Below are positions 36,001-63,000 of a stretch of 64,000 bases of DNA, piece after piece. The DNA lies in NCBI GenBank assembly GCA_013076295.1, contig RQOL01000374.1:4454743-4518742 (forward strand). The letters run 5' to 3'. The notes under the pieces were generated by a model, which saw only the letters and a program-made list of their open reading frames with translations, was not told where the DNA came from and made no database searches. The DNA comes from Sanderia malayensis (lineage: Eukaryota > Cnidaria > Scyphozoa > Semaeostomeae > Pelagiidae). Within the stretch, counting starts at the first letter, position 1. Every line of letters starts with the position of its first letter. A program made the position numbers and the translations under genes.

Positions 36001-39000
36001 AAACGAGCGTATGCGAGCGCCCCCGGCTAGTCTAATATTACTATTCTGCGATGTCACGTGACGGTGGCGAAACTCTGCCTAAAATAGATTCGACCCGAAA
36101 CAATAGGCCGAATGCCCAAAAACAATGTGCCGAAAGCGAATCGGTGAGCAATAAGGCTTTTTTGAATGGGGTCGCAAAAGGTTGAGACTTGCATGGAAAG
36201 GCTCCATTTCTAGAGTAGGTAAAAGTTATCTATTTTTGGAAGCATATTTTAAAAGGATTCATGATTTATTCCATTAATTGTTCCACTAATTGTGCTATCA
36301 CGAAAAAACGACGGTTTACGCTGGCGAAACTTCCAAATTAGCGTCCCCAACTCCATTTTCGAAAAGAGTACACGCTCTTCACATGATCCGTTTCGCCTTT
36401 TCTTGCAATTTGATTGGCTCTTTCGTGACTTCACGTGAAAAGTCACGCGTTTTTCGTTATCATGCAAATTAGCCCTCGGGTTGAACAGCAGGTACTTTTG
36501 GAGAAGACACGTGTTTTTGTTTTGTACACAAAAAGTGAGGTGGGCGCCTTTTAAAGTGTTTTACCAGCTGAACTATCTTTGTAAAGAGCTCTTAATTGTT
36601 TGAAACCCCTGGAGAGTTGCAGGAAACAATGGAGAACACAGGTGATAGCTTTGTTTTTTTTTAATGAATAGTTGTAGGTTTTTTTGCAGTAGGCGACCGC
36701 CATTGTTCCTTCGGCATGCTAACAACGTTTAGGCATGGTCAAAATTTTGAATTTTTCGGCCGTATTTGCACGATTTTCCCCATTTAAATTTTTGACAAGT
36801 GCTGTCTGATAACACAACTAAAATAAAGTGTTTTTTTTTTTGTTTTTTTGTTGTTTTTTACGAGTTCCAACAAAGTTGCTTTTCACTCGGGAAGGAACAA
36901 TTTTTCACGCAACACGCGTTGTTTTTGCATTTGCGAAAATTCAATTTTAGCCTGCCACAATTAATTATTTTTTACCCAAACATTTTGATAATTGTTCCCC
37001 AACATATTACCTTCATGTTGGTTTTTTTTTGTTCAACTGGGTCACTATTTGCCACGGTAAATACTATTTTTACTTGCTAAAGTGTGTTCACAGGTTTTAC
37101 TTTTTGCAGGGCTCCGAAATTTCATTCAAACCACTTCCACTAAATGGTCTCTAAGAATTCAGTATTATTTGGTTAAGAGATGAGACTATTTGCAACGTGT
37201 TCGCTGTTTCCTTAGCTACAGTTTGATATATTTTTATTACAGATTGAGTCTAAAATTTCCAGGATGGGTTAGGTTCTTGAAAGTAACTATTTTTTTCAAA
37301 CTTCACACTGAAATTATCAACTTTCAGAAACGGCTTTCAGGGAGCAGCGTGGGCGCGGGGCTGTAGCTTGCTAGGGGGAAGATTTGACCTCCCACCTTTA
37401 CTTTCTTTAGAAATGTTACGTCGTAGTGTGTATAGTAAGGTATGTATAGTAGGGTATGTATTGTAGGGTAGGTATTGTAGGGTATGTATTGTAGGGTATG
37501 TATTGTAGGGTATGTATTGTAGGGTATGTATTGTAGGGTATGTTATGTAGGGTATGTATTGTAGGGTATGTATTGTGGGTATGTATTGTAGGGTATGTAT
37601 TGTAGGGTATGTATTGTAGGGTATGTGTTGTAGGGTATGTATTGTGGGTATGTATTGTAGGGTATGTATTGTAGGGTATGTATTGTGGGTATGTATTGTA
37701 GGGTATGTATTGTAGGGTATGTGTTGTATTGTATGTATTGTAGGGTATGTATTGTAGGATATGTATTGTAGGGTATGTATTGTAGGGTATGTATTGTAGG
37801 GTATGTATGTAGGGTATGTATTGTAGGGTATGTATTGTAGGGTATGTATTGTAGGGTATGTATTGTAGGGTATGTATTGTAGGGTATGTATTGTAGGGTA
37901 TGTATGTAGGGTATGTATTGTGGGTATGTATTGTAGGTATGTATTAGGGTATGTATTGTAGGGTATGTATTGTAGGGTATGTATTGTAGGGTATGTATTG
38001 TAGGGTATGTATTGTAGGGTATGTATTATAGGGTATGTAATGTAGGGTATGTATTGTGGGGTATGTTTTGTAGGGTATGTGTTGTATTGTATGCATTGTA
38101 GGGTATGTATTGTAGGATATGCATTGTAAGGTATGTATGTGTGTATGTATGAATGGACATGAGCGGTAGCGAGTGCAGCAGCGTAGCGCGCCAACCAGAT
38201 TAAGCATTCTTTACTTGACGGGCTCCAGGGAGGGAGCAAAGCGACCGAACCCGGCTCATGTTTGTATGTATGTATGTATGTATGTATGTATGTATGTATG
38301 TATGTAGGTATGTATGTATGTATGTATGTATGTATGGGCATGAGCGGGAGCGAATGTAGCGTGCGAAGCGCGCCAACCAGATTAAGCATTGTTTACTTGA
38401 CGGGCTCCGGAGAGGGAGCGAAGTGACCGAACCCGGCTCATGTATGTATGTATGTATGTATGTATGTGTGTATGTAGGTATCTATGTATGTATGTATGGG
38501 AAATGCAATGCAGCGCACAAAGTGCGTCAGCCACAGGCGAGCGTAGCGACCTAACCGAAGTGTGCCCTATCTGTCAATGTTTCTTGATAATGGATAGACA
38601 GGCGAGCGCAGCGAGCTAAGCCATTGTACGTGGGGTTGAAAGAGGCATGAGCGTAAGCGAATGCAGCGCAAGAAGTGCGCCAACCACAGGCGAGCGCGGC
38701 GAGCTTACCCATTGTACGTGGGGTTGAAAGGGGCATGAGCGGTAGCCAATGCAGCGCACGAAGTGGGCCAGCCACATTAAGTTTTTCTCATTGCCCCCCG
38801 GGAAAAGCGTACGCGAGTGCCCCCGGCTAGTCTAATATTACTATTCTGTGATGTCATGACGGTGGCGAAACTCTGCCAAACAATAAATTCGACCCGAAAC
38901 AATAGGTCGAACGCCAAAAACAATGGGCCGAACGGCGAATCGTGATCAATAAGGCTTTTTTGAATGGGGTCGCAAAAGGTTGAGACTTGCATGGAAGGCC

Positions 39001-42000
39001 CCATTTCTGAGTAAGGCAAAAGTTATCTATTTTTGGAAGCCTATTTTAAAAGGATTTATGATTTATTCCATTAATTGTTCCCACTAATTGTGCTATCACG
39101 AAAAAACGACGGTTTACGCTGGTGAAACTTCCAAATTAGCGTCCCCAACTCCATTTTCGAAAAGAGTAGTCGCTCTTCACGTGATCCGTTTCACCTTTTC
39201 CTGCAATTTGATTGGCTCTTTCGTGACTTCACGTGAAAAGTCACGCGTTTTTTTGTTATCATGCAAATTAGCCCTCGGGTTGAACAGCAGGTACTTTTGG
39301 AAAACAACGTGTGTTTTTGTTTTATACACAAAAAGTGGGGTGGGCGCGTTTCAAAGTGTTTTACCAGCTGAACTATCTTTGTAAAGAGCTCTTAATTGTT
39401 TGAAAGACCCCTGGAGAGTTGCAGGAAACAATGGAGAACACAGGTGATAGCTTTGTTTTTTTTTTAATGGAATAGTTGTAGGTTTTGTTGCAGTAGGCGA
39501 CCGCCATTGTTCCTTCGGCATGCTAACAAAGTTTAGGCCAATGTTCAAAATTTTGAATTTTTCCGGCCCTATTGCACGATTTTCCCCATTTAAATTTTGA
39601 CAAGTGCTGTCCGATAACACAACTAAAATAAAGTGTTGTTTTTTTTGTTTTTTTGTTGTTTTTTACGAGTTCCAACAAAGTTGCTTTTCACTTGGGAAGC
39701 AACAATTTTTCACGCAACACGCGTTGTTTTTGCTTTTGCGAAAATTCAATTTTAGCCTGCCACAATTGATTATTTTTTTACCCAAACATTTTCGATAATT
39801 GTTTCCCAACATATTACCTTCATGTTGGTTTTTTTTTAGTTCAACTGGGTCACTATTTGCCATGGTAAATACTATTTTTACTTGCTTAAGTGTGTTCACA
39901 GGTTTTGCTTTTTGCAGGGCTCCGAAATTTCATTCAAACCACTTCCACAAAATGGTCTCTAAGAATTCAGTATTATTTGGTTAAGAGATGAGACTATTTG
40001 CAACGTGTTTGCTGCTTCCTTAGCTACAGTTTGATATATTTTTTATTACAGATTGAGTCTAAAATTTCCAGATGGGTTAGGTTCTTGAAAGTAACTATTT
40101 TTTTCAAACTTCACAGTGAAATTATGAACTTTCAGAAACGGCTTTCAGGGAGCAGTGTGGGCGCGGGGCTGTAGCTTGCTAGGGGGGAAGATTTGACCTC
40201 CCACCTTTACTTTCTTTAGAAATATTACGTCGTAGTATGTATAGTAAGGTATGTATAGTAGGGTTATTTATAGTAGGTTATTTATAGTAGGGTATGTATT
40301 GTAGGGTATGTATTGTAGGGTGTGTATTGTAGGGTATGTATTGTGGGGTATGTATTGTAGGGTATGTGTTGTATTGTATGTATTGTAGGGTATGTATTGT
40401 AGGGTATGTATGTAGGGTATGTATTGTAGGGTATGTTATGTAGGGTACGTATTGTAGGGTATGTATTGTGGGGTATGTATTGTGGGGTATGTATTGTAGG
40501 GTTTGTATTGTAGGGTATGTATTGTAGGGTATGTATTGTAGGGTATGTGTTGTATTGTATGTATTGTAGGGTATGTTTTGTAGGGTAGGTATTGTAGGGT
40601 AGGTAGTGTAGGGTATGTATTGTAGGGTATGTATTGTAGGGTATGTATTGTAGGTTATGTATTGTAGGGTATGTATTGTAGGTATGTATTGTGGGGTATG
40701 TATTGTAGGGTATGTATTGTAGGGTATGTATTGTAGGGTATGTATTGTAGGCTATCTATTGTAGGGTATGTATTGTAGGTTATGTATTGTAGGGTATGTA
40801 TTGTAGGATATGTATTGTAGGGTATGTATTGTTGGGTATGTATTGTAGGGTATGTATTGTAGGGTATGTATTGTAGGATATGTATTGTAGGGTATGTATT
40901 GTAGGGTATGTATTGCAGGCTATTTATTGTAGGGTATGTATTGTAGGGTATGTATTGTTGGGTATGTATTGTAGGGTATGTATTGTAGGGTATGTATTGT
41001 AGGATATGTATTGTAGGGTATGTATTGTAGGGTATCTATGTAGTATCTTTGTATGTATGTATGTATGTATGTATGTATGTATGTATGTATGTATGGGCAT
41101 GAGCGGCAGTGACTGCAGCGCGCGAAGCGCGCCAGCCAGATTAAGCATTGTTTACTTGACGGGCTGGGGCGAACGAGCGAAGCGAGTGATGACCCCTAGT
41201 CTAATATTACTATTCTGAGGAGGTCACGTGATGACGCACTTTCTTGCCAAAAACAATAGATTCAACCCGAAACAATAGGTCGAACGCCTCAAAACAATGG
41301 GCCAAGACGGCGAACCGTGTAATCACAAAGGCTTTTTTGTATGTGGATATATGGCAATGAAATTCACACTGAATGCTTAGTTTATTAAATTAACAAGGGT
41401 AATGGATTTTGTTTTTCGATTTTCTCCCAAATTATTGAATTATTCCACTAATTATTCTGCTAATTGTGCTGTCAGGAAAAAACGACGATTTACGCTGGCG
41501 AAAATTCCAAATTCGCGTCCTGAACTCCATTTTCGAACACACTGTTCGCTCTTCGCGTGACCCGACTTGCCTTTTGCTGTAATTTGATTGGCTCATTCGC
41601 GACTTCACGTGAACAGTCACGCATATTTCATTATCATGCAAATTTGCCCTCGGCTTCAACAGCAGGTACTTTTGGAGAAGACGCATGTTTTTGTTTTGAA
41701 CACAAAGGATAACTCGGGGCCTTTCAAAGTGTTTTACGACCTGAATTATCTTTGTAAAGACTTGCTAATTGTTTGAGAGACCTCTGGAATATTACAGGAA
41801 ACAATTGAGAACACAGGTGTTAGCTTTGTTTTGTTTTTGAGTAGGATAGTTGTAGTTTAGGTAATAAGTGACCGCCATTGTTGCTTCGGCATGCTTGCGA
41901 CGCTTAGGCCTAATGTAAACAAGCCCAAAGTTTTAATAAACAAATTATGATAAGGAGTTATCAGGCGAGCGAAGCGAGCCAAACTGTTGCAAGAGGAGTA

Positions 42001-45000
42001 GGCAGAGGCATGAGCGAAGTGAATGCAGCGCACGAAGTGCGCCCTATCAGCTAATGTTTCTTGGTAATAGATAGAGAGGCGAGCGCAGCGAGCTAACCCA
42101 TTGTACGTGGGGTTGAAAGAGGCATGAGCGAAGCGAATGCAGCGCAAGAAGTGCGCCAACCACAGAGGCGAGCGCAGCGAGCTAACTCATTGTATGTGGG
42201 GTTGAAAGGGGCATGAGCATAGGCGAATGCAGCGCATGAAGTGCACCAACCACATTAAGTTTTTTTCACTTGCCCCCCTCCGGGAAGCGAGGGAACCGAG
42301 CACCCCCGGCTAGTCTAATATTACTATTATGCGGAGGTCACGTGATGACGCACTTTCTTGCCAAAAACAATAGATTCGACCCGAAACAATAGGTTGAACG
42401 CCCCAAAACAATGGGCCAAAACGGCGAACCGTGTAATCACAAAGGCTTTTTTGTATGTGGGTTTTTGACAATGAAATTCGCACTGAATGTTTAGTTTATT
42501 AATTTAACCAGGCTAATGGATTTTGTTTTTCGATTTTCTCCCAAAGAATTGAATTATTCCATTAATTATTCTGCTAATTGTGCTATCACGAAAAAACGAA
42601 GGTTTACGCTGGCGAAACTTCCAAATTCGCATCCCGAACTCCATTTTCGAACAGAGTGTTCGCTCTTCACGTGACCCGTTTCGCCTTTTCCTGTAATTTG
42701 ATTGGCTCTTTGGCGACTTCACGTGAACAGTCACACGTTTTTCATTATCATGCAAATTTGCCCCCGGGTTGAACAGCAGGTAGTCTTGGGGAAGACGAAT
42801 GTTTTTGTTTTGCACACAAAGGATAACTGGATGCCTTTCAAAGTGTTTTACGACCTGAATTATGTTTGTAAAGACTTGTTAATTGTTTGAGAGACCTCTG
42901 GCAAAATACAGGAAGCAATAGAGAACACAGGTGATAGCTTTTTTTTGCTTTTCTTTTAGTGAGATAGTTGTAGTTTTCGTAGTATGCGACCGCCATTGTT
43001 GCTTCGGCATACTTGCGACGTTTAGGACTAATGTAAACAAGCCCAACGTTTTAATAAACAAGTTATGATAAGGGATTATCAGGCAAGCGGAGCGAGCCAA
43101 ACTGTTGTATGAGGAGTAGGCAGAGGCATGAGCGGAAGCGAACGCAGCGCACGAAGTGCGCCAACAACAGGTGAGCAGAGCGAGTTTACCGATTGTAGGT
43201 GGGTTTTAAAGGGGCATGAGCGTGAGCGAATGCGGCGCACGAAGTGTGGCAACCACAGAGGTGCGCGTAGCGAGCTAACCCATTGCACCTGAGGTTGCAA
43301 GGGGCATGAGCGGGAGCGATTTCAGCCCACGAAGTGTGCCAACGACAGAGGCGAGCGTAGCGAGCTAACCCATTGCACATGAGGTTGCAAAGGGCATGAG
43401 AGGGAGCGAATGCTGCGCACGAAGTGCACCAACCACAGAGGCGAGCACAGCGAGCTTACCCATTGTAGGTGGGATTTAAAGGGGCATGAGCGTGAGCGAA
43501 TGCAGGAGGTATAATGTAGGTGAAAATCTCGTCCTGGACCATGGCTTTTCCTCATTGGTTTTATCAATGCCGGACCATGCATGATTGCGATTATGTTTTT
43601 AGGCAGTTTCTGCGAAGGAGCACGGTTGAAAAGTTAGTTAGTGGCGGACGCAGCTGTTCATATAGATTCTTCTTTTCGCTTATTGTTCCAGTACCGTTAT
43701 TATATACGGCAACATAAATTAGTAAGTTGTGGTCTAATATTAGTTGTTCAATAATTGGTAGGATAGTTAGTATAGTTGGTAGCTCATATTGGTAGATTCA
43801 GATAAATTATGGATGAGCTGGAAATTCGTATTGACTCGTCGTTGATGGGGGAAGAACAAGATTTTGGTAGTTCCATGGATAGAGAAATTCGGCATGAAAG
43901 TGACGAAGAAGGTGCTTCTGAGGTTGAAAATCATTCTACGAATATTGCAACGCCCATAGAACCACTAGTATCCACTGCATCGTTCTCTCGATCAAAGCAA
44001 ATGCCAACTGGCTCAAAGTATTGTCCTAAACACCCCCGAAGAACATGGAAAAAATCTGTATGTATTTTTATGGATGTTTTAAGTATTTACTTACCTTAAG
44101 TAAAGTAATTTACCTAAAGTACGGTCATTAGGTGCTCGATTACAGTAATTAGACTCGTATCATCTTTGGAGTCTTCTTCTGGAAGATGCTCTGCTATCTA
44201 GTGTTGCCCAATTAATTAAATAAATCGATAATAAATTGAGATGGCCATTTAGTCACTTTACAAAAATACCTATAGAAAACATTTATTAGCTATCTATCTA
44301 TCTATTGGATACTGTACAAAGACCCAATAATGGGTATTATGCACAATTTGGTTAGTTGTTAGTTGTTAGCAATTGACAACTAACAACTAACCCAAGATAA
44401 TAGGTGGGTGCTTATGTGTGACCAAAAGAAATTAATATCTTAGTATGATTACTTAGTATCATCAATAAAAGTAAATAAGCAAGGGTAACTGGCTTGAAAG
44501 CCTTCGGTTATTTTTTAGTATTTCAAGCAACAAAATTGTTAGACTTTATCATTAAAAGCTTTAAAAGTGGAATTACTTGAATTGAAAGGGACATGAAATG
44601 ATTGTTTTTTCTATGTTTGCCAATTCTATGGATGTTTTCAGGTAAGGTTTGTGACAAATCAAAGAAAGAGACAGAGATATGATCGAGATAATATTCACCA
44701 GTTAAGAGTGAAAGTAAATTTCATTTTATTGCTTGTATTTTATATTATGATATGCCATACCAGCCTGTTGCTTTATTTGCCACTGGCTTAGTTATGTTTG
44801 CACATCATCTATCAGAGTGAATTTTGTTAATACTTCTTCTGAATCCAATTGTTTAGGTTGCTGAATGGCATGAAAAAACTAAAGCACCCATAGCTTGTTT
44901 TGTATATGCAAGTGGTCGAATAAACTTCATAAGTATGCTTATTAGAAAGTGTTATTGAATTACTGTCCTTGTGCTTGGGGTTGTGAAAGGTAAAACAAGC

Positions 45001-48000
45001 TATTTTTTGTAGAAAATAACTTTTATTTGTTGATGTTTTTGTAGCTTCTCCTGGATTACGTCCATTGGCCAAAAATGTTGCATTTCAACAACTTATATCC
45101 AAGTATATTCAAAGTAGTAAAGGAGATGGTTAGAATATAGCTTTTATATTATTCAGTTGAAAATGCATTTTTATACTATCTTGAGGATTAAATGTATCAG
45201 TCACGGGTGTAGGTAATGTAGGTCCATTTATGAAATGGAACAAACTCCAATATCCTTCTTGTCTGGTGTTCAACATTATTTTCTTTGAACTTTAAATAAC
45301 ATTCAACAGATATTTTATGTTGTTATATCACACATCCCAAAGGATATTCACTTACAAGATCAGAGTACTTTGAGAGAAATATGTTGCTAATAAATTGTGG
45401 CTACTGTTCTTTTAGATTTGGCAAATGATTTGATTGAAATCCCAATGGACTGGGAAAGTCAGAATGTTCCATTTAAGCGCAATCTTCTAGTAGAAATAAT
45501 TACTCAAAAAGGTAACGAACTGTTTGCTTGTGTGAAAACAGTCTCCAGAGAGAATGCAGGTACTTGTTCAATATTTATTTATTCTTTTCAGGCAAGATAA
45601 AGGCATGTTGGGGAGATGATTCCAAAAAACCATTGTGGCGGCCTTGTGATGTTTCGTTTGTTTCCCCAAAGAACAACCGTAGTGTAAACCGTCCAAAACT
45701 TGCGGCATTGAATATGATTATAGAGTCATATATTGATGGTCATTGCTCAGTAGAAGACATTGTAAGTATGGAGACTGCAGCAAGTGATATTGAACACGAG
45801 GATGAGATGCCAGAGGCAATTGAAGAATCATCAGAACTGGAAGGAATTTGTGACTAAATAAAACCTGTAAGCAACTGCATGCTAAGGCAGATATAACATT
45901 TTTATGATCACTTTGATCATCATCTTTGTTTAACGCTTTTTCATGCTTGGATTGGTTTTATGGGTTTCATGTGGTGGCTTTTTGAATGCCTTCTGATCTT
46001 CTGCAATTTCAGATTGCAATCTTGACATTTTAAGGTCATCTGATTAACTGGTTCCATGTCTTACACGGTTTACCCCTCGCCTCCCTTCAGTATGTTAGCG
46101 ATTGTTTATGTATTTCTTGCCTATTTGAATTTCACTATTATAAGTTGCTTTTTTATAACAGGTAATTGCAGTAAATGATATGAGTATCCTGTTGCCCAAC
46201 ATGTCAAAAATGGAATGGTGTCTCATTGAGCGAGTTGCACAATTATTGCTGCCTTGTGTTGAGAATGCACTTCAAGCTGCATTACCTCGTTTCAAATGCC
46301 TAATAACGATAAAGCATATACAATTATGGTAAGGTGTGATTTTTCAATACATTTTAGCATTTGAAGGTACCCATTATTTATCTTCCATCGACAAAGATTG
46401 TTGTAGATTCACATCGACTTGCGTCTACAAACTAAAGCAGCACATGAAATGGTGCTCAAAAAGAATGTCACTGGTGCATTCTGCGTGCACTTTCTTTTTT
46501 TTTTTTTTCCAATGAGAACGCTCTGGAAGTCAGGTGTGAGATGGCGTTGTGTGCAGTGGTGTGTTTCTTTGCTCTTGTTCTCTCAACCTTTCAAGTAAGA
46601 AAGTTTGCCTTCTGCAGTTCTGATTCATTCTACATATATCTAAACAACGCTGTAGACAGCCTTGTCATTAAAGAAAGTTACATCTGTTCCTCAATTTGGA
46701 TAAACAGGCAAGATAAGCTTTTTCAGGCTAGGCCCACTCGCAACAAATCGACCTTAATGGTACAGATTTTGATCTTGTTGTGTGGCGATATTGAAACATG
46801 CACTGGCCCTGCCATGAAATGTGGTTATCGCATGAAAGCAGTGCGAAAAAATCAAAGCAGAATAAGCTGTACTAGTTGTAAATTGCTCCACCATATAAAG
46901 TGCATGGATAATGAGACAGAAGCTCTCTGCCGCTCGTGTTTATCAAAATCTGTCGAAGTTCATACAGGGGAAATCGTAACGGTGAATCAAGATCAGTATG
47001 AGTTACCTGAGCTTACTGACCTACTTGCAAGGAAAGGCCTTAAAATTCTGCATCAGAATATTCGGGGACTTCTAACACACAAACAAAATCTTTGTCATAT
47101 CCTTGGTGATTTCAAAGGAATTCATATTCTCTCGCTTAGCGAAACACACCTGGCCGCTGACGAGGAAGCTGAAGCTCAAATTATTGGCTATGATTTTCTG
47201 GGAAAACCAAGGATTTCTGGTCAAGGAGGTGGAGTTGGGATTTATATTTCACAATCAGTGCCCTTTCAAAGGCGTTTAGATCTTGAGGATGATAATATCG
47301 AATGTATTTGGATTGAAATTTTATTTCCCAAATCAAAAGGATTTCTTATTGGGGTTATCTATCGCCCGCCTGACTCGTCAAAACATCTACCTGAAACTTT
47401 CAATGAAACTTTTGAATCAATGCTATCAAAGGTTATTTCCGAAGACAAAGAGTGTATTTTGACTGGGGACATAAATTGCAACTACCTAGAAAGATCAGAT
47501 CACAAAGAACTAAAAGCAATATTTTCGTCTTTTAACTTGAAACAACTGATCAGTAGCCCTACGAGAATAACTAAAGAATCAAAAACATTGATTGATGTTA
47601 TTTGCTGCAATGAAACACAAAACATTAGTTTAGTGAAAGTAATCCCGGCAGGTTTGAGTGATCATGAGTTAATTGGTTGTTCACGCAAAATGCACAATGT
47701 AAAATTACAATCAAAAACAATAACATGCCACAATTACTCAAATTACAGCCCAAATCTTCTTTGTGATGACCTAAAAACTGCAAACTTTGAGGATGTCTTT
47801 AGAGCAACCAGCGCAAATCATGCATGGCTTTATCTCAAACAGATACTGGTTTTCTATTTTAACAAACATGCACCCTTGACAACAAAGAGAGTGAAAGGAA
47901 AACTAAGTCCATGGCTAACAACCGAAGAGAAAATACATATGAATATCAGAGATAACCTATTACGTAAGGCTCGTCGGTCAAACCAAGAAATTGACTGGTC

Positions 48001-51000
48001 TTCCTATAAAAATCAACATAATCTTGTTACTGGCCTCGTGAAAAAATGCAAGAATAGATTTCACAAAGACCTTCTAAAAGAAAATGCAAAGTCGCCAAGT
48101 AAATTTTGGGCCACCATCAAGAAACTCTACCCTACTAAGAAAACAGCTCCATCTGCTGGCTCGGCTTTTGAAATAAATGGATCGAAAACAACTGACAACG
48201 GAACCACAGCGAACACCCTATGCAGTTACTTTTCAAATGTAGCAAATTCACTCAAGTCAAAATCTTTCCCTTTGCGGGTTTTTACTTGGATGAAACCCAC
48301 TGAAAACATTCTTGCTCCTCTATGTTCAGAGAAGTTCTCTCTCAAAGAAGTTAGTGAGGCTGATGTGTACAAAGAATTAAAAAACCTCGAACGCAAAAAA
48401 GCAACTGGACTTGACAACCTCCCTCCTGGACTACTGAAGGATATAGCCCCTATTTTAACGAAGCCTCTCACACACGTGATAAATCTATCTTTTAAAATGG
48501 GAATAGTACCTGCAGACTGGAAGGAAGCAAAAGTAGTTCCAGTATATAAGTCTGGCCCCCGTTCACAAGTGGATAACTATAGGCCCATATCGATTCTCCC
48601 AACTTTATCGAAGATTTTAGAAAAACTGTTTCACAAGCAGCTTATGAACCATCTTGAAAGAAATGCGCTTTTATTTAATTATCAGTTTGGATTCAGAACA
48701 AAAAGATCAACAGAGCAAGCAGTCATATATTTCTTAGATCATATCAGGAGGGGAGCGGACAAAGGGCAGCTGACAGGTGCATTATTCATTGATCTATCTA
48801 AAGCCTTTGACACTATTAGTCACTCTGTTCTTCTCTCTAAGCTCCAAGCCTACGGAGTGAGAGATAATGAACTAGATTGGCTAACAGACTACTTATTCAA
48901 TCGCAAGCAAACTGTTCCGTACAAGGAAACATTTTCCAATTCATGCCCTGTGTATACAGGTGTTCCACAAGGATCCATCATCTGTCCTCTTCTGTTTCTA
49001 ATTCAATTTAACGATGCACATAGATCATTGAAGCATACAAATATTGTGACATATGCAGATGACACGGTTATTTTTACATCGAGTAGTGATATTAAAATCA
49101 TTGAAAGCCATCTTAATCAAGATGTTAACAACCTAGCCACCTGGTTTTCTAAGAACGAGTTAATCATGAATCTGAAGAAAGGGAAAACAGAAACTATGCT
49201 TTTCGGCACAGTAAAGAGATTGAATAAATTCAAAGAGAGACGGCTTAACATCATAAGTGGAGAGACACCCATAAATTGTACGACAGAATATAAATATCTT
49301 GGAGTAACATTAGACCCCTCGCTAACGATGGATGCTCATATCGATATAACCTGCAAAAAGGCAGCAGGAAGGGTTAATCTTCTCATGCGCATTCGAAATT
49401 CCATTGATACACCAACAGCCATTGTAATCTACAACGCTATGATCATGCCCCTATTCACATACTGTGGATCAGTTGGGCTGGGATGGTCAGAATCAAAATT
49501 AAAGTGTTTGCGTAGTATTGAGAAACAAAGCATGAACATTATCAAATCAAAATGTCCACCTAAAACTGATTTGAGAGTTCCGCATATAGAAAATCAAATG
49601 AAGAAAAGTGTTTGTAAATTTGTTTTTGACTGCCTACAGAAGAATGTATGTGAGCCATTTAAGGATTACTTCGAAAGAGCAAAACATGAAAAATGCACAA
49701 GAAACAACAACTATACCGCTAAACTGCCACGAATGGAAACAAAAATTGGGCAAAAGTGTATAACATATGCTGGTGGAAGAATTTTCAATGATTTACCCCT
49801 TGAGGCTAGAAAGATTCAGTCCAGGATTGTTTTTACTTCTTTTTTAAATGAACATTTTAGATGAAGAAACTTTACATTTTATATTTATAAACATTACATT
49901 ATTTATTTATATATTAATAAGTATTATATATTTTTAAGCTTAATGTAGTTATTATGTGTATATATATTTTTTTTTTAACTCTTATTTTCTCTTACTTATT
50001 ATATATATTTCTTAACTCTTACTATAAGCATTACATTATATATTTATATATTGATAAATATTATATATTTTTAAACTTAATGTAGTTATTATATATATTT
50101 TTTAACTCTTACTTTCAAGACAGGACCCTTAAGATAACAGCATTTGACTATGCTGATAGGCTATCCTGTATAAATATTCGTGTTATTATTATTATTATTA
50201 TTATTATTTCTTACTTCTTAGTTTCAGAACATATATTTTTTAGAACATAAGAGTTCGAGTTTCTGTTTTACAAAGGTGCAATATAATGCAATATAATACA
50301 GATAATAGCTACACACATGTTTAATGCATTGCTGGCTTGGCTCATAAATCAATTTGTAACTTTATTATTAATACAGGTCTAGACATTGCATACCTAATTC
50401 AATCACGAGTCTCGAACCAGTGTTTGTGGAAGATGGTCCAGAAGACGAAAAATATTTTGCACTCTTGAAAATTGGATCTCTTGTCAATGCAAGAACTGCG
50501 CCGTCTATTTATGAACCAGCAGAGGTATGTTGAAGACTGAAACTGAAAATTATAAAGGTCAAGACAGTTACATGACAAATCTTTACATTTTTCAAAATTT
50601 CAAAACATTCTCTTTTAAATGAGAGAGAATTTGCGTGGCTTTGAGTGAAAGAAATTATAATTATTGGCGTTTTAATTACTCCATTTCGATAAATTTTCGC
50701 AAACATTTTTTAAGGGACCTCTTCGGAGTTTTCTTTAAATATTATTGCAAAAGAATATGATATGGTTTAAATTATGTTTTCACTTGAAAATTTATGAAAT
50801 TCTGAGTATATTTCTGCTAAAGAGATTCGCTATTGAAACCCGTTTGGTATTTATATATTGTTATGTAAATTTTATTGCTTGGGCCCTGGGCCACTTCTAG
50901 ACGCCATTTTTTATCAGGCGTTGCAATACTTTTGGAACCCCAGTGTATGTGTTGAAGTTTAACTTCTTTCTTGTTAAGGGATGGATTACAATTGGGTTTT

Positions 51001-54000
51001 CTTGCAGAATGAAACTAGAAGTGCTTTGGAGGTTTTTTACTTATGCTAAATGATGCTATAACTTTGTTTCTTATATAGGCAATGATGTATCTTATAATGA
51101 AAGCAACTGGCCTGAATCGACTTTCTGCAGAGCGGGCTGCAAGAAGATTCCTTGCACCCAACTTCCCTGATCATGATGTTTGGCTCCATAATCCGGCATA
51201 TAAATAATATGTCATTTGTTTTGTTGTGGACAAGCTCATGCAACACCAAAATTGCTTATTCCTAATCACAATATTGCAATCTAATACTAGTAAATTATAT
51301 TTTGTACTCAGTTTTTATAAGTATTTCTTAACTATTGGATGGTTTTGTAATGCTTTCTCTTTCTTTACATTTAATTGATATTATTTTATTGTAAGCGGCT
51401 TATATCAACCGACGTTATGCAACAGGCACCACATAATATCTTGTATAAAAATCTGCTTTTGTAATTGTGTCTGTATGAATTGTTTTAATTTGCACTTATC
51501 CATAAACATAGAGCTGTTCTGGGGGATATCCGTTGCTTGTATTAGTTGTCTATTCTTTGAAGCACAAGCTCTTGCAACTTTTTCAATGCTAGTAAAAATT
51601 CCAGCGCACAATTGCAGGAACACGTTTGTTCTTTTGTTTACTATTGATAGCATTGAAAAATGTCCCCTAAGCTTTTTTACATATAAATGCAATTCAACTT
51701 CTATTCCTCTCAGCAATTTATCAAATGAGTTGGCATTACAGTTTTGTGGCTTTCGATATGTTAGCAGGTGGTGGAAATTAGCGATGGAACAGCCTTTTTA
51801 AAGCAGATGTTGTAATATTCTTGTAACATGTCGTTTTTGCAAGTTAGGTAGCATACTATTTCATTGTCGTGATTTCACTTTTTAATAAAAAACTATTCTT
51901 GTTTCTCGCCCCAAAACATTAGGACATAAACATAACAATTCAGAAAACATTCGCAGGGTTAATTCGGTATTTTGTCATCGGTTCACTCATGCATTTCAGA
52001 TTATGTTCCTTGTGCCTTTGTTTTTGCCATTGTACTTTTCACGGTTTCTGACTTCTTTTGTTATTGGTTTATTTGTAATTAACTCTATTTAATTTGTTCA
52101 TTAGTGTTCTTTTCATAAATTTAATGAAGAACAACAATTATGTAAGCCAAATGAACAAGAAATGGAAATTAGAATGTAAAGAAATAAAGTTAGCCGGAGA
52201 ATATAGATTAGAATTTGTCGAAAACATACCATAAACCCTCAGGAGTTATTACAAATTACAAAATCAAAAGCTTACCTGGATTTCAAATTTGAATTAATTT
52301 ATCTATATATAAATGTCATAGTATACAGTGCACTTAATTAATAAAATACTCTCACTACAGATCTTTGGGAGTGTATTTACACTTTCGTCATTGAGAGAAC
52401 GGGGGGTGTCGAAAAGTTTCCCGACAATTTAATGAATCCTATTTTCAATGAAAAACATAGAACAGTAAATAATTGTATTCTTCTCAGATTAAAGTTAAAT
52501 TTTTATAATACATAGCAGTTTCTGTGTGATTTTTCCCGAACAGTTATCCGAGTTTTGCCCGATTTTTCTCACTTTTGGCACAGTGTTGCGAACCTCACAC
52601 CAGTAAATATGATGCCCTTGCCCAACCTCGATGTATTAATACAGTGTTTTAGTTGGACATCTTCGAAAAGCCTCTTCCCGAGATAAAGGCAATCATTTGC
52701 AATAAGCGCCCTCTGCTTGAATAAACGCCCCCTAAGCATACTGGGCTGGTCGTTTAATTTGTTGGCCTCCGCAAATGCCAACTCGAAGGGAGAATATTTC
52801 TTTTTATTCTTCGAAAATTCTGCAGATAGAACAGCGGGAGCCCTCAAATCGTCCGTAAAGTCCAGCTTCGGGAAAGCAATCACAGCTGAAACAAATTTTT
52901 CTTCTTTGTTTTTCATACAATAATCTCTGAGACGAGAGACTTCAATAGCAATATGACCAACCAGGGACCCCTATCAGAACTGGAACAAACTGGAAATACG
53001 TTTTCTCCCTAACATGTTGTGAGCAAAATTGAACGAGCGCCCCTTGCTGAATTACCGCCCCTTTTATAATGTTATTCTTTAAATGAGCGCCGGGACGATA
53101 ATTTTGTCATTTACGGTAATATCTATGTTTATACTAGCTTTGCAGAAATCATTTACATTGAAAATATTTGAAAGAATAGTTGTCCAGTTGTCTGCTATTT
53201 AGTTGTTTGTCCATTAGTGGGTCCCACTGAAAAAAAATTTTCAACTTTCTATGCACATACCGTAAGCCCTAGAATACACTCCCTTGGGGGTTTATTTGCA
53301 AACATCAATTTTAAGCGATATCTATTCCCCGTGGTGAAGAGAAAATTTCTTTTTTACTTCGGAAAACCTCTGTTTCAGAATACAATGACATATAATGAAT
53401 GAAATGAGTTTTTTAACCGGTTTCAAGTGGTCAAATAAGTCAATCAGTAATCAAGGTTCAAATTTTAAGATATTATGAAACGCAAATAACTAAAATGCAA
53501 AATAATTGGCCTGGCATGGCAGCAGATTTCGGACATGTATCGATGTCCAAAATGAGGTAATGGTATGTAAATGAGGTTATAAGTTAGGAAAGGTTAATCG
53601 ATTGCAACATTGCAAATACAATAACCAATGTCAAAAAACATTATTCAATTAAGAATAAAAAAGAGGTTATGCAAACAAAACCAAAGAACATAAATAAAAG
53701 ATTATTTGTCCATTGCTTTTTCTTTTTCCAACGCCTTCCTTTTCAGCATATCCACATTTCTAAACCATAAAAAAAATTTACAGTGCATCATGAACTTTTC
53801 TGGTCCCATATACGATAGTTGTGACCTTAACCTTTTTAGTGTCGAATTTTGTTGCTCGTTCACTTGACTGTTCAACTTCTCATATAAAGGGTAATTTGAC
53901 ATGTTGTAGGCAGGACAACAACTTGCAAAAAACCGAGAACAATTGTCACCGGCAAAATAGATCAAACTGTTAGACAATCAAACAAACTGATCAAAATAAC

Positions 54001-57000
54001 TCTTAGAAAACAAGGTCAGCAAAACTTCATATAGGTTCAAAACAAATAAACTGCCATCCTATACACCAATACCATTGGCAGAATTGTGAAACTAAGCGAT
54101 TATGATAATGTAGCCTAAAATGTTATTACCAGTGTGATTCTTCCAATGAAAACGATCAACAAGGAATTTTCTGTTCTTGAAAAAATTTGGATCTCTATTT
54201 AAACAGTATGCATGTAGATTGCAACCATTATCATATATGATCGTGGAGGAAGCTGCAAAAGCATAAAAGTAATGAGATAACAAGCAACACTTTCAGTTAC
54301 GCTTAGTGCTTCCAAATAAAAATAGGCATATAATAATACACAGATTCTTAACAATTCCACTGCAGATTCCTTTAATACTTTTGAGACGTCAAAAGATATG
54401 CTAGACAATAACACTTTCGTAAACATATCCTTACCCTGTTTGAATCTTGTTCTAAAAGTTGTAAATGGAACATTTGATGACTCGGACGTTTCCATAACTC
54501 TAAAGCCGTAATTTATACCTGAAATGATACAATTCATATCATTATAATTGTGTTAGCTATGTATGAAATTAAGAAATCACCACCACAATTACCTAACCTT
54601 ATGTTATATAAACAATGCACAGTTCTTATGAAGCGGTGTCACTCACATACACCATGAGGACAATAAATAGTAAAAATCCCAGAAGTTAATGAAGGATGAC
54701 CATGACTCTTCTTTACACAGGGATCTTATTCATTGCAATTTCAAGTGCTCTGATCCATTGCAAAACCACCACGTTCACGTTGTTTCGGAAAAGTTGGGAA
54801 AAAAGCAAGTGGATCTGCATGAATTCGAACTGGCGGTCCATTGATTGTGCTTTTATCTTTAAATGGCAAGCAAGCAATTTCATAAAGCCATTCGAATAGT
54901 TTCACCAGGGCCTCCGGAATTTGACTTTCGGGTATTATGCTTATGACTCCATAAACCAATGGAACATGCTGTTGAAGATTAAACAGTGCTACTGCAGATG
55001 ACTTAAATGAATCTTCTGAGAGCTGCCCAATGAGTTCTTTACAGACTTCAGTGACTGGGTTATAAGCGCATACTGGACTGCCACTACTTATTGATTCGGC
55101 TAAATCAGTCAAGGCAAGGGAGTAACAATTCATCTTTATCCATATAAATGAAGCAAATACTTTTGGACAATGTTCTTCCAAAAGCCTCATCAGCCTCTCC
55201 TCATCAGAAAATTCTACAATCGGTTTCCTTTTTTGAACATGAACTGCCGATTTGCGAAATAATTTCCAAGTATCGGAGTGCTGAATAGCTAGCCGACTGT
55301 TGTAATCACTACAAGAAGTTAGGAAACAACAATTAAATAAAATTATACATGGCACAATTTAAAAAACTGGGCAACAGGCAGCGTTCAATTCTAGATCTAA
55401 CAAAACATGACAAATAAATAATGACTTTTAAGCCTTAAAGATGATAAACGATTAAGACACTTACGATTTCCGAGGAATAATCTGATCTTTTTCGTTAGAT
55501 TCTGAAATTTCAGACAGTAGTTGCTTTCTAAATCCGAGGCTTGTTCCGTCGCAAACAAGAATGTCTGGAGTCAAACCACACTCAGGACAAGAAACAGACA
55601 AATTATATTGTATATCGAAAAGGTCAAGAAACGCGTACCAGCTGGCTCTCCAGTCATGGTAGCTGCAAAGGCTATTGAATTTTTTGTTACCATAATCTTG
55701 TTGCTGGTGCTTCCAAGAAGAATAGTAACTGATTAGGGTCGAGCTGTAAGAGAAAACAGTGTCACTAATAATTTGCGTTACATTCAAAAATAGACAAACA
55801 AATCGATGCACTAACATAGGAAAAACAAGAACGCTTACCTGCTTCCATACAAAAAGTGATACATGTAATCTCTCAATACATCATATCCAATCAAAAACTT
55901 TCCCATGTTTAAAATACCATCACTGCTACCATCATACGATTTCCACGTACCATACTTTGCACATCTTTTTCCGAAAACTGTCAATTCAAGTAAAAATGAT
56001 ATTAACAAAAGTTTATGAAAAAATGATATTCACAAAAAATGCATGTTCTTAATTGAAGTATATATTGGAAGAAAGCAAGAAATGTAACCTTCACAGTTAT
56101 ATTGGGTTGTCGTCGTCAGTAAAACAAGAACAGTGCCTACTTCATCAGTTGATGAAAGTAACATTTCACATTCACTGCAGTTTATATCTCCATCCTTTAA
56201 AATGTAAAACCCACCCAAATTTTGTTGGAAACAAGAGTAACCCATGGCAATCTTCTTTGCGACACCTTCTGGTAGCTCGAATGGTATTGGAAGAAACGAA
56301 ATTGGCTTCAATAGAGAAAATGACCTTGCCTGCCAAGGTTCTTCACTTGCTAAGACTAAATCATAAGCAATATTTCGAATGTCAGGTGATCCAGATTGTG
56401 TTGCATGCCTCAGATGAATTACATGGCAACGCATTGATGCCCCATATTTACAAGTCGTGCACTTTAATTTTCCCATATCCATTCCCACAAAACCAACACT
56501 TCCTTCAGTATATACAATAACTTTTGAATCATCATGGGGAATAGCAAAGACACTTTTTCTATCCTGAAACAAATAACAAACAATATATTACTTTATTTTA
56601 TGAGAAAAAAATTTCAATTGGAAAATGTTTGTATCACTACTCATCGTCACTAAAAAGCAGACAAGAACAATCCAAGAACAAGCACAATAACTATGAATAA
56701 ATAACAATGCTCCCAAGATGCAAAATACCAATGAATCATCACAGCATCCAATTTTTGCCAAATCTAGATGAAAAAGATATATGACTTAAATGTAGAAATT
56801 ATACAGAGTGATGAAATAAATACATTTCATATATTTGATATAGATACCTGAAGATGGGAATATCTTATGTTCTTCATCAAAATCTTTCATAACTTTTTTA
56901 AGAACTTTACAATGTTGACATTGTTTTTGGATGCTTTCGAGCTCTATGATAAAAGTTGATTATTTAAAGTATTTATAGTTTTCGAAATATCAAAAGGATT

Positions 57001-60000
57001 ATGATTATGGAGTTACTTCAGGTAGTATTCAAATTGAGCAACAGACCGCATTGCTCTTCATATCATAATAGAAACCTGTTGTTGATTACTGTTGTGTAAT
57101 ACTTCAAAATAGTTTACCATTTAAAGAACTTGAAAGGTCATTTGGGAGATTCTTGATGAATGTCATCTGACTTGAATAGCAGTTGCAATAATAAAGCCAC
57201 ATAAAATCTTTAGTATTCTCTGACATAAACATGTGGACAGATCTTCTTTGAACAACAAAATAATTTGAAGTCTAAAAAAGTTAGCCTTTAGATTAGATGA
57301 AAATGTAGTAAACAACTTTCAAAAAACATGTAGCAAGGTGAAATAAGGTGAAATTCCATTTGCATGACAAATCTAGCATAGAAAAGTGCATAAAAATTTT
57401 GAATTTAGAGCCACTTACTGATAAAGTGTGAAGGTCTCTCTGAAAGCCTGGAACAACCACCATAGTATAAAACTTGTTAATTGGTACTACTGCTCCAAGT
57501 CGACAAAGCTCCATGCAATACAAATTAATATTACGTTCCTCTGGAGATTCATCATTTGTAGAAGTAATCTAGAAAATAGGAATTGCATAACCCCATACAG
57601 GTAAACTACCTACAACTTTCTACGTGTAATTGCAATGTTTAATTCTTTAGAGCGTTTTATTTTTCTGGCATTAATTCTTAGCAAAAAAACCTTGATCCAA
57701 AAATGGCTTGTGCACTAGTTGCACATAACTGTACATCAATTTTTCCCCACCAGATACAAGGATTAGATACTTAAACTGAACATAGTATACATAGAAGAAC
57801 AAGGCAATTGTCACTTGTACAAGTTACGTTACTAACTAAATATGGAGAAAAATTGAAAAAAAAGAACTATTTCATACCACATCAAACCAATGGCTATCAC
57901 CACTGTCATCACTGCCACAGGCATCTTCCAATTGTTGATCATCGTCAGAGATCCCTGGAGTAGCTAGATTTGATGGACCTGGTAATGGCTCAGATGACTG
58001 TTTTAAGGCAATACTTTTAGACTTATTTAGCTTCATGGCATCATCATCACAGGAGCCCATAGGTAACTGCCTAACCTTTTCAACAACCTTGGGCCAACAG
58101 GACTTTGAAGGTGCTACATAACAATTAAGGGAGCTGCTCAACTCACCAACAAACTTAATAGCATTTTCAGCTGCAACTAATGGGGGTCCTACAGCACAAC
58201 GGAATTTCATTTTCGGACCCATTTTAGAGGTTGAGGGCTTCAAAGCTGAATGTTTCCTGTTTGCTTTAGATTTTGCTTTCAATCATCCTTTACCAACTTC
58301 ATAAAATTCAATCTTCGTTTCTTTTTTTTGTTCCATGCTGTTGGACAACAGTAGTCGTCTAGTAGGTAGTATATATGAACAATATAAATAACCCAATATT
58401 AATCAAAATATGTCAATAGCATTCTCCTCAAAGAAGATTAGTCTTAATGCTTTCGAATTAAATTATATGAAAACAGTTAACAAGTCAAAACTATTAACAT
58501 TAAATAATAGACATTATAAATTAGATAATATATGCATTAATTAACTATTGTAAAAAATGAAACTTATAATATACAAAACAAAAAAGAACGAAACGCATAA
58601 AGACAGAAATGTATAAAACTAAGAAGTTTTTCAGCTCTACCTACATTAAACAAATGCAAAGCAGCTCAAATATAACTATATATCAACATCATAACTACAA
58701 CTGATTAAAAGTGGCCTAATCCCACTATCCACTATAAAACTATTTAGACCAGGCGGATGGATGGTCACTCGAGGGCGAAATTTATGAGACCAAGTGCATT
58801 TGGTCAATTGGAGGGTGTTGATTTCGAAAATCGATGTTATACGGGGATTTTGGGGGGCCATCAGCCTCGTTTTTGTGTTTAAAGTCTCGTTTTCATGTAC
58901 ATGAACCAAACCAACAAGAAAATAGTTTTAAGCAGAGATAACAAACATCTAAAGGTAGATTAAGCATCTTTGATAGACGTAAATGTTGAAAATTGAATTT
59001 AGAACTGTTAAGGTGGGCAACAGCCTTGTTTTTATGATGACGAAATTTCGTAATTGTACAATTTCTGTCTTTCGAGAGGCATCCAAAGAGGTCAAAGCGC
59101 TTAAAAACCTACAGTTGTTACGGTTGTCCTCTATAGGGGTTATGCAGCGCTATTAACTGATTAATACGAATAATACTAATACTACTAATACTAATACTAA
59201 TACTAATATTAATACTAATACTAATACACTTGATTAATACTGATTAATACTGATTATTGCTAACTGCTCAATAACACTAACAGAAATGACCGGATCATCC
59301 AAACTGAGTCAGAACGTTCCACAGTTCTTCAAAATCGTTTTCACTGTCACTGCACTCGACACTCAGCTTCCAGCTCTTCGGTGACTTCAACTTGGTTCAG
59401 CAAAAGCTCCGAGATATCTTCTGGGTAGCAAGTATCACTCCAACGAACCGATCCTGCTTCATTCCAATCATGATCTACTGGGGCGTCCAACTGAAGCATC
59501 AAACCATTAGCTTGCCTGAAAATCATAGCGACATAGTTTGCACGCAGAATGTGAAGCCTGAGGTTTCCTTTACATGGCGGCAGGAGACTGAGATCTATGA
59601 TCTTCTTTTCTCTTTCGAATTTCTGCACAAATAGCTTGTGTCGCAGCAGATTCACGGACGATATTCTCTTGTTTCCATATAGCACACAGACAAACTTCTC
59701 TAAACCGTTGGCGAGATTGTCTGACACCTGAGAGGAGCTTTCCAACACAGTTAAGAGGGGTGTAAGTGAGAGGTACGTATTGACGAGTCCAAACATGAAA
59801 GTGCCTTATGATTTCAACAACTTTCTCTGCAACGGGGAAAACAAAGAAATGCTGTTTAATCTTCTTCAGGTTGCAATAATTGATGATCGTAGCAAACTAT
59901 TTAGCCGGACTGTTATAATTTCAAACAAATCTCAGTGTACAAAGGTTACAGCGGGTCATGTGGAAGTGCTCGAAAACTGGGCAAGTGACCACGAAGAAGC

Positions 60001-63000
60001 AGACACAAAGTTAGTGGCGTTGGTTGAAGCTGCAAACCTTTCCCCCGATTATTCTGTCATGGTTCGATCTCCCTCTGGCGACGTTGACATTCTACCATTG
60101 TTCTTATCACATAAATTTGATGGAACGAGGATTCTCGTGGATAATGGTGTTGGAAAACAAAGAAAAATAATCGACATGATATCGTCAACCCTTGAGACCG
60201 AAAAAAAGCACTACTTGGCCTTCAGGCTTTTTCTGGCAATGACTATGTATCCAGCTTTTTCAAGAAGGGGGAGCAAGCATTTACCAACAAGAAAAGAGTT
60301 TTAAGCAGAGATAACAAACATCTAAAGGTAGATTAAGCATCTTTGATAGACGTAAATGTTGAAAATTGAATTTAGAACTGTTAAGGTGGGCAACAGCCTT
60401 GTTTTTATGATGACGAAATTTCGTAATTGTACAATTTCTGTCTTTCGAGAGGCATCCAAAGAGGTCAAAGCGCTTAAAAACCTACAGTTGTTACGGTTGT
60501 CCTCTATAGGGGTTATGCAGCGCTATTAACTGATTAATACGAATAATACTAATACTACTAATACTAATACTAATACTAATATTAATACTAATACTAATAC
60601 TAATACTAATACACTTGATTAATAATGATTAATACTGATTATTGCTAACTGCTCAATAACACTAACAGAAATGACCGGATCATCCAAACTGAGTCAGAGC
60701 GTTCCACAGTTCTTCAAAATCGTTTTCACTGTCACTGCACTCGACACTCAGCTTCCAGCTCTTCGGTGACTTCAACTTGGTTCAGCAAAAGCTCCGAGAT
60801 ATCTTCTGGGTAGCAAGTATCACTCCAACGAACCGATCCTGCTTCATTCCAATCATGATCTACTGGGGCGTCCAACTGAAGCATCAAACCATTAGCTTGC
60901 CTGAAAATCATAGCGACATAGTTTGCACGCAGAATGTGAAGCCTGAGGTTTTCTTTACATGGCGGCAGGAGACTGAGATCTATGATCTTCTTTTCTCTTT
61001 TGAATTTCTGCACAAATAGCTTGTGTCGCAGCAGATTCACGGACGATATTCTCTTGTTTCCATATAGCACACAGACAAACTTCTCTAAACCGTTGGCGAG
61101 ATTGTCTGACACCTGAGAGGAGCTTTCCAACACAGTTAAGAGGGGTGTAAGTGAGAGGTACGTATTGACGAGTCCAAACATGAAAGTGCCTTATGATTTC
61201 AACAACTTTCTCTGCAACGGGGAAAACAAAGAAATGCTGTTTAATCTTCTTCAGGTTGCAATAATTGATGATCGTAGCAAACTATTTAGCCGGACTGTTA
61301 TAATTTCAAACAAATCTCAGTGTACAAAGGTTACAGCGGGTCATGTGGAAGTGCTCGAAAACTGGGCAAGTGACCACGAAGAAGCAGACACAAAGTTAGT
61401 GGCGTTGGTTGAAGCTGCAAACCTTTCCCCCGATTATTCTGTCATGGTTCGATCTCCCTCTGGCGACGTTGACATTCTACCATTGTTCTTATCACATAAA
61501 TTTGATGGAACGAGGATTCTCGTGGATAATGGTGTTGGAAAACAAAGAAAAATAATCGACATGATATCGTCAACCCTTGAGACCAAAAAAAAGCACTACT
61601 TGGCCTTCAGGCTTTTTCTGGCAATGACTATGTATCCAGCTTTTTCAAGAAGGGGGAGCAAGCATTTTGGAAGGCAATGTCACTAGAAGCAGAGTTCATC
61701 AGGTCTTTTTCTATGTTGGGAAGCTCCTCTCAGGTGTCAGACGATCTCGCCAACGGTTTAGAGAAGTTTGTCTGTGTGCTATATGGAAACAAGAGAATAT
61801 CGTCCGTGAATCTGCTGCGACACAAGCTATTTGTGCAGAAATTCGAAAGAGAAAAGAAGATCACAGATCTCAGTCTCCTGCCGCCATGTAAAGAAAACCT
61901 CAGGCTTCATATTCTGCATGCAAACTATGTCGCTATGATTTTCAGGCAAACTAATGGTTTGATGCTTCAGTTGGACGCCCCAGTAGATCATGGTTGGAAT
62001 GAAGCAGGATCGGTTCGTTGGAGTGATACCTGCTACCCAGAAGATATCTCGGAGCTTTTGCTGAACCAAGTTGAAGTCACCGAAGAGCTGGAAGCTGAGA
62101 GTGTCAAATGCAGTGACAGTGAAGACGATTTTGAAGAACTGTGGAACGTTCTGACTCAGTTTGGATGATCCGGTCATTTCTATTAGTGTTATTGAGCAGT
62201 TAGCAATAATCAGTATTAATCAGTATTAATCAAGAGTATTAGTATTAGTATTAGTATTAGTAGTATTAGTATTATTCGTATTATTCGTATTAATCAGTTA
62301 ATAGCGCTGCATAGCCCCTATAGAGGACAACCGTAACAACTGTAGGTTTTTAAGCGCTTTTGCCTGTTTGGATGCCCCTCGAAAGATAGAAAATGTACCA
62401 TTACGCAATTTTGCCATCATGAAAACGAGGCTGTTGCCCACCTTAACAGTTCTAAATTCAATTTTCAACATTTACGTCCATCAAAGATGCTTAATCTACT
62501 TTTAGATGTTTGTTATCTCCGCTTAAAACTATTTTCTCGTTGGTTTGGTTCATGTACATGAAAACGAGACTTTAAACACGAAAACGAGGCTGATGGCCCC
62601 CCAAAATCCCTGTATAACATCGATTTTCGAAACCAGCACCCTCGAATTGACCAAATGCACTTGGTCTCATAAATTTCGCCCTCGAGTGACCATTCCCCTA
62701 TTCTCCGCCTGGTCTAATTCAGTACAAAAATACCAGCTACCAACTACACTAAATATACATTAAACAACTAATAATGTGATATAAGAAATGCTTGTGAGTG
62801 TATGTGACACAATTACTTGAATAATTAGCCAAAAGAAGAATCTATATGAACAGCTGCGTCCGCGATTAACTAACTTTTCAACCGTGCTCCTTCGCAGAAA
62901 CTGCCTAAAAACATGCTCGCAATCATGCATGGTCCGGTATTGATAAAACCAATGAGGAAAAGCCATGGTCCAAGACGAGATTTCCACCTACATCATACCT

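Follow-up and report, generated by a model that had tools for sequence, protein, structure and literature searches.

What kind of mobile element lies between two inverted repeats in a tandem-repeat region of the scyphozoan Sanderia malayensis, and which of the genes inside it are its own? The locus is found in the window, the whole 64-kb stretch of DNA analysed (C303:4454743-4518742), which was compared with a genome of 184 Mb in 918 contigs. It is most probably a defective copy of a cut-and-paste transposon of the KDZ (Kyakuja-Dileera-Zisupton) class, belonging to a lineage that carries three genes between its inverted ends: G1, encoding a protein similar to the DNA-binding domain of NRF1; G2, encoding a zinc-finger protein; and G3, encoding the transposase. 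The ends, a 7-bp target site duplication, and the gene order are established, as is the presence of G1-G2-G3 in two further, diverged families; the three families are A (that of the window), B, and C. The existence of the element and its anatomy are close to certain.

The initial annotation of this DNA had described inverted ends of about 185 bp, identical sequence on both flanks, and a repeat that becomes intact once the element is removed, all of which is borne out. The element spans 43506-63001 when the duplication is read as 7 bp, and its arms (43507-43693 and 62814-63000) are 187 nt long and 94% complementary. GAATGCAG is present on both flanks, inside tandem repeats of 88-90 bp, and joining the left flank to the right restores a unit of that length, as read by eye. 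The flanking repeat is abundant in the genome (at least 71 matches; 40 of 2190 candidates scored), and the window ends are rare (8 matches genome-wide). In family A, the left end reads GAGGTATAATG in C303, the contig of the window, as well as in C509, C424, C591, C894, and C892, while the two known right ends (C303 and C447) read CAGGTATGATG. Family C left tips (C829, C478, and C758) begin GAGGTATRATAG, and its right tips (C829 and C758) begin CAGGTATRATAG when read outward-in. The termini are GAGG..CCTG, and the terminal inverted repeats (TIRs) measure 88 to 187 bp.

A duplication of 8 bp had been proposed, and eight bases do match in the window; the eighth lies to the left of AATGCAG, and its right partner is G63001, counted here as the last base of the element. 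In C829, the 7-bp duplication TATAAGT is bordered by a mismatch on the left and has an extra matching G on the right only, and in C758, the 7-bp duplication GTCATGG has mismatches beyond it on both sides. In C478, other sequence has taken the place of the right tip, and the duplication is unreadable there. No single 8-bp reading fits the window, C829, and C758 together; the target duplication is therefore 7 bp, the sole length compatible with all three elements whose tips are both readable. The left flank in C424 and the right flank in C447 share CAATTTA, and C424 has a 100-N gap inside the element; the two may be halves of one insertion. No empty allele was found, as C509 holds the same insertion with the same flank and the C447 and C424 flanks, in their unique parts, match only themselves (40 of 584 and 40 of 391 candidates scored, respectively).

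The arms share an internal organization. GGACCATG occurs four times in the 64-kb window, always within an arm; in C829 and C478, each arm likewise has two copies. The common signature of the ends consists of AGGTATRAT and two GGACCATG motifs, the first of which begins, in both family A and family C, 29 bp past the A of AGGTATRAT. A genome-wide search for this pattern, AGGTATRAT-GGACCATG-GGACCATG, gave 16 matches, against 0 in a backward control. Outside the common motifs, alignment of family A with family C ends scores 12, no improvement on shuffled sequences (mean 11.2, maximum 18). Such ends were not seen in the family B pieces examined, and C679 carries G1 and G3, yet no end was found there by the pattern. 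Most other contigs show one end only, as would suit two arms brought together by chance from unrelated elements. That origin, a concern attached to the right-hand repeat in the initial annotation, has next to no probability: the arms are 94% alike and bounded by the same duplication, paired ends of the same signature occur in C829 and C758, and the control is empty.

Table 1. Features of the element and of the insertions nested in it, in window coordinates.
Feature	Position	Strand	Basis
Left target site duplication AATGCAG (7 bp)	43499-43505	.	length from comparison with C829 and C758
Left TIR, starts GAGGTATAATG	43506-43693	+	94% to right arm
GGACCATG motif 1, left end	43536-43543	+	motif search
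GGACCATG motif 2, left end	43572-43579	+	motif search
G1, NRF1-like DNA-binding protein, 280 amino acids (aa), open	43809-45857	+	own exon model
G1 exons	43809-44057, 44642-44713, 44857-44932, 45045-45128, 45416-45511, 45592-45857	+	six-exon model
Nested long interspersed nuclear element (LINE; endonuclease and reverse transcriptase, stop-to-stop frame 46448-49864), not the element's own; TTTCTT both sides	46497-50206	+	empty site in C591, C894, C892
G2 remnant exon, internal deletion relative to C591	50377-50524	+	boundaries by eye
G2 remnant last exon; intervening exons in C591, deleted in window	51079-51207	+	boundaries by eye
Small repeat, probably inserted; lacking in C591, with many matches elsewhere to its part 52677-53119	52396-53205	.	
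G3, KDZ-type DDE transposase, 12 exons	53702-58336	-	own exon model
G3 catalytic triad: D, D, E	55550-55548, 54232-54230, 53857-53855	-	
G3 in-frame stops (3)	58285-58283, 54743-54741, 54728-54726	-	own exon model
Nested unrelated inverted-repeat element, TAGACCAGGCGG ends, ATT both sides, not the KDZ element's own	58745-62716	.	
Right TIR, ends CATACCTG	62814-63001	-	partner of left arm
GGACCATG motif 2, right end	62928-62935	-	motif search
GGACCATG motif 1, right end	62964-62971	-	motif search
Right target site duplication AATGCAG (7 bp)	63002-63008	.	comparison with C829 and C758

The element had been taken for an unusually large one. Its 19.5 kb are, however, due to a LINE, a separate TIR element, and a small repeat nested inside it (Table 1). 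C591, C894, and C892 are uninterrupted where the window has 46510-50206, and the relatives in C829 and C758, 96.4% alike, are 11.24 kb each. About 1.2 kb of C591, falling between window positions 50536 and 50946 and partly common to C892, has been lost from the window, and the original length is estimated at ~12.2 kb. The nested LINE has a 1138-aa stop-to-stop frame, a start that looks zinc-finger-like by eye, and an (ATT)n tail, and C509 shares its left part. With its frame open and its empty sites clean, the insertion would seem to be a young one. The nested inverted-repeat element is multicopy (at least 91 matches; 40 of 118 candidates scored) and contains internal inverted copies of a gene with a HEEADTK stretch. 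A 3-kb block common to C424 and C591 was considered as extra cargo and rejected, since by eye it is a reverse-transcriptase (LINE) copy.

The KDZ-type transposase already recognized in the initial annotation is G3, though with three in-frame stops. It possesses a DDE triad of the RNase H fold, and its last splice acceptor is degenerate in comparison with C591. The public gene model P0001, apparently of the same locus, ends at the 54743 stop. Named homologues occur in Clytia, oysters, scallop, amphioxus, and brittle star. PF18758, the Pfam KDZ domain, is matched in 6 of 17 homologues, with a profile of which the window protein aligns over 746 columns; a CxC4 cysteine cluster is matched in 6 of the 17 as well, with no direct match in the window protein. 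G3 would thus belong to the KDZ class by descent and not by a direct domain match. A Foldseek search with a transposase homologue gave 0 matches at E ≤ 0.001, and a VIA-align comparison of the homologue returned DDE enzymes. The Pfam KDZ domain is matched at 111 places in the genome, which holds many other KDZ-like sequences.

Between G1 and G3 lies G2, a plus-strand gene that was read by eye in C591 and from open frames in families B and C. A zinc-finger segment with invariant Cys and His residues is common to the G2 of the three families, in an alignment whose rows were pieced by hand. The C591 protein has a PHD finger below the Pfam cut-off (E 0.013), and a Pfam search of the G2 pieces gave no match. 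The start of G2 may be OTU-like. In the window, the gene is broken by the LINE and by deletions, which is why it was missed and a two-gene design proposed. The locus had also been called a full element, which is correct for its ends and incorrect for its genes, as both G2 and the transposase are broken. Both ends, matching flanks, a transposase, and a second gene are present, and eight bases match in the window, all as an uncharacterised, unusually large 19.5-kb two-gene KDZ family with 8-bp duplications would have them; that version is nevertheless very improbable in the face of the nested LINE and TIR element, the 11.24-kb relatives, the lack of a common 8-bp reading, and the presence of three genes. 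What survives of it is a KDZ-related DNA transposon with both ends.

The second spliced gene, on the plus strand, is G1, which does belong to the element and is open in the window; its aligned part is also open in C591 and C894 and is not open in C509, C424, and C892. G1 is very likely related to NRF1, judging by sequence comparison. A four-row G1 profile matches the NRF1 structures PDB 8k3d (E 3.1e-7) and 8k4l (E 1.3e-6), the only other match up to E 10 having an E value of 0.67. With the NRF1 domain PF10491 (cut-off 23.5), a family B G1 put together from two copies scores 31.1 bits, four family C places in the genome reach 26-27 bits, and the public family B protein P0018 carries PF10491 in its precomputed annotation. 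The host has an NRF1 gene of its own at C479, which scores 377 bits. In BLASTP, run without composition correction on a one-sequence database, family B G1 shares 25% identity with host NRF1 over 161 aa (E 7e-11), a match that extends over part of the dimerisation region, and window G1 shares 28% over 67 aa (E 6e-5). A protein search with window G1 alone gave no matches, and one with the four-row alignment returned five short proteins, among them P0018, which looks to be from the same species. The fungal YDR124W-like family also matches weakly in the Pfam comparison. NRF1 contacts DNA through R206, N242, R244, and K221, according to the available portion of PMC10810270, from which the residue numbers were counted by us along the profile alignment; R206 and K221 are kept in the G1 of families A and B.

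Does G1 travel with the ends? The initial annotation proposed looking for the plus-strand gene between the ends of further copies, and G1 lies inside 13 of 17 known ends of families A and C, within about 2 kb. The remaining four are right ends, those of C303, C829, and C758 by pairing and that of C447 by subterminal sequence. The 13 comprise six contigs of family A (C303, C509, C424, C591, C894, and C892) and seven ends of family C (C437, C478, C483 twice, C757, C758, and C829). C303/C509 and C591/C894 share flanks and are alleles, so that the independent insertions are fewer: four in family A (three to four if C424 and C447 are one) and up to seven in family C. Among 35 transposase loci, as counted by us with 47 of 538 candidates scored, G1 faces an opposite-strand G3 at nine: the window, C591, C758, C478, C829, C679, C483 twice, and the family B locus of C303. 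The scores of C679 and one of the C483 loci are alike, and these two may be allelic. A KDZ match at C784:138727, on the same contig as a family B G1, was rejected, the window transposase and four homologues having no match there. The family B locus of C303 contains a direct duplication (419371-422066 and 427805-430500; 2.7 kb seen, 99.9%); transposase exons recur at the same 8.4-kb distance, and the duplicated unit seems larger.

Comparison between families points to longer-term conservation of the proteins. For G1, 19 of 22 fourfold sites and 72 of 256 first and second positions differ between family A and family B in C784, 11 of 12 and 53 of 154 between A and B in C303, and 3 of 5 and 39 of 102 between A and C in C829. 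For G3, the corresponding figures are 70 of 99 and 590 of 1508 between A and C in C478, 55 of 81 and 451 of 1132 between A and C in C829, and 32 of 50 and 200 of 598 between A and B in C303.

Several results weigh against a KDZ lineage with three genes of its own. The window transposase has no PF18758 match at E ≤ 1, and a genome-wide search for the KDZ domain gave no match inside the window. For G1, the full-length window protein has no PF10491 match at E ≤ 1, its last exon matches weakly (13.3 bits), and a family C exon in C478 falls just under the cut-off (22.2 bits); the structure model of family B G1 (P0018) is poor, with a mean pLDDT of 48, and was not used. Two base-contacting residues are changed in our alignment reading, N242 to S and R244 to K. 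A different DNA site is therefore expected for G1, which is called NRF1-like and not an established NRF1 orthologue. The between-family comparison sees alignable codons only, which favours conserved parts, and for G1 between A and C in C478, 5 of 10 fourfold sites and 54 of 148 first and second positions differ, few sites in all. Among recent G1 copies (15 pairs), the ratio of nonsynonymous to synonymous substitution (dN/dS) is 0.60-1.44 for 13 pairs and 3.12 for another, the last being undefined, and that of G3 against C675 is 0.71; there is thus little sign of constraint between recent copies, which is what dead copies should show. Finally, 26 of the 35 transposase loci have no G1 match. Of these, 22 are distant, and the four nearer ones are C675 (an old copy, with G1 intron DNA, 92% over 124 bp, about 12 kb away), C880 (at a contig start), and C587 and C423 (fragments). 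G1 marks one lineage and not all KDZ-like elements of the genome, and a G1 that changes fast could have been missed at some transposase loci.

These last observations bear on whether G1 and G2 are passengers, that is, captured host genes without a part in transposition. Near-neutral dN/dS among recent G1 copies would fit that origin, the 22 distant loci without detectable G1 indicate that a transposase of this type can do without it, and fungal KDZ members, which also carry an extra gene, captured TET/JBP genes, as described in the accessible part of PMC12730594. Passenger status is nonetheless unlikely, as the G1-G2-G3 order is kept in three families whose fourfold sites are near saturation and whose proteins are still alignable, and as G1 is kept at 13 of 17 ends, the others being right ends.

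If the three genes act together, G3 would cut and join the ends, and G1 would read the paired GGACCATG motifs at each end and bring G3 there, in the manner of the Myb-like protein of Harbinger. G2 might provide contact with chromatin through its zinc finger, which is our guess. Since G2 and G3 are broken, the window copy would be mobile only if other copies supply the proteins. Binding of G1 to the element ends is a serious possibility that we rate slightly below even. G1 may alternatively be a transcription factor that activates the element's genes or counters silencing, with no role in bringing the transposase to the ends. In favour of this, NRF1 is an activator (PMC10810270), G1 carries an acidic tail, and both genes have a GGACCATG pair upstream, G1 that of the left end and G3 that of the right. 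The position of the first motif, 29 bp past the A of AGGTATRAT in families A and C, is more in keeping with end recognition than with a promoter, and a purely transcriptional role seems improbable, if well short of far-fetched.

The mode of action proposed here, with G1 at the ends, has its closest parallel in Harbinger, in which a Myb-like protein attaches to the TIRs and assists nuclear import (PMC9179366). Both systems have a separate gene for a DNA-binding protein adjoining that of a DDE transposase, and the element may work in a Harbinger-like way. The transposase class and the DNA-binding fold are different, and the element is not a Harbinger. The target duplication of Harbinger also differs.

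With KDZ elements, the lineage shares a transposase class related to KDZ-domain and cysteine-cluster proteins, the DDE triad, and a multi-exon gene; it is unlike them in combining a 7-bp duplication with long TIRs and in carrying NRF1-like and zinc-finger genes. In PMC12730594, duplications of 8 bp are described for Zisupton and a Dileera family, unlike the 7 bp found here, and two Kyakuja families make 7-bp duplications, as here, but have CA..TG ends and no TIRs in place of GAGG..CCTG termini with TIRs. Compared by these descriptions, the ends fit none of Zisupton, Dileera, and Kyakuja. Fish Zisupton with F-box and CxC7 (PMC12062965) and nematode Zisupton without detectable target duplications (PMC9297572) are also on record.

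G1 resembles NRF1, erect wing, and P3A2 by its sequence match in the DNA-binding domain and by the kept R206 and K221; it differs in being encoded inside a transposon, in a host with its own NRF1, and in the changed N242 and R244. The DNA-binding mode of NRF1 was termed novel when the structure was solved, in the available text of PMC10810270. No NRF1 domain in a transposon was found among the matches listed in the open-access literature or by a word search of PMC12062965.

Elsewhere in the window, positions 27546-41086 hold repeated arrays of a 14-bp unit, GTATGTATTGTAGG, adjoining 88-bp units, and a strong skew of G over C (to ~0.5) extends over about 26 to 42 kb. A large near-palindromic tandem array (C829:600001-602881) stands directly left of a family C element.

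Several copies are needed to describe such an element, as the single window copy suggests 8 bp, 19.5 kb, and two genes, all of which are off. A KDZ lineage with an NRF1-fold end-binding subunit and a rewired site of GGACCATG pairs, in which NRF1 descended from such a transposon protein or the transposon protein from NRF1, is a tentative proposal, and somewhat doubtful as a whole. NRF1 is a regulator of mitochondrial genes, which would be linked to a mobile element if the proposal is true. If G1 is an end-binding partner, the KDZ class would be added to the eukaryotic transposons whose DNA-binding protein is a separate one, and comparison of transposon with host versions would make it possible to test where the NRF1 domain came from.

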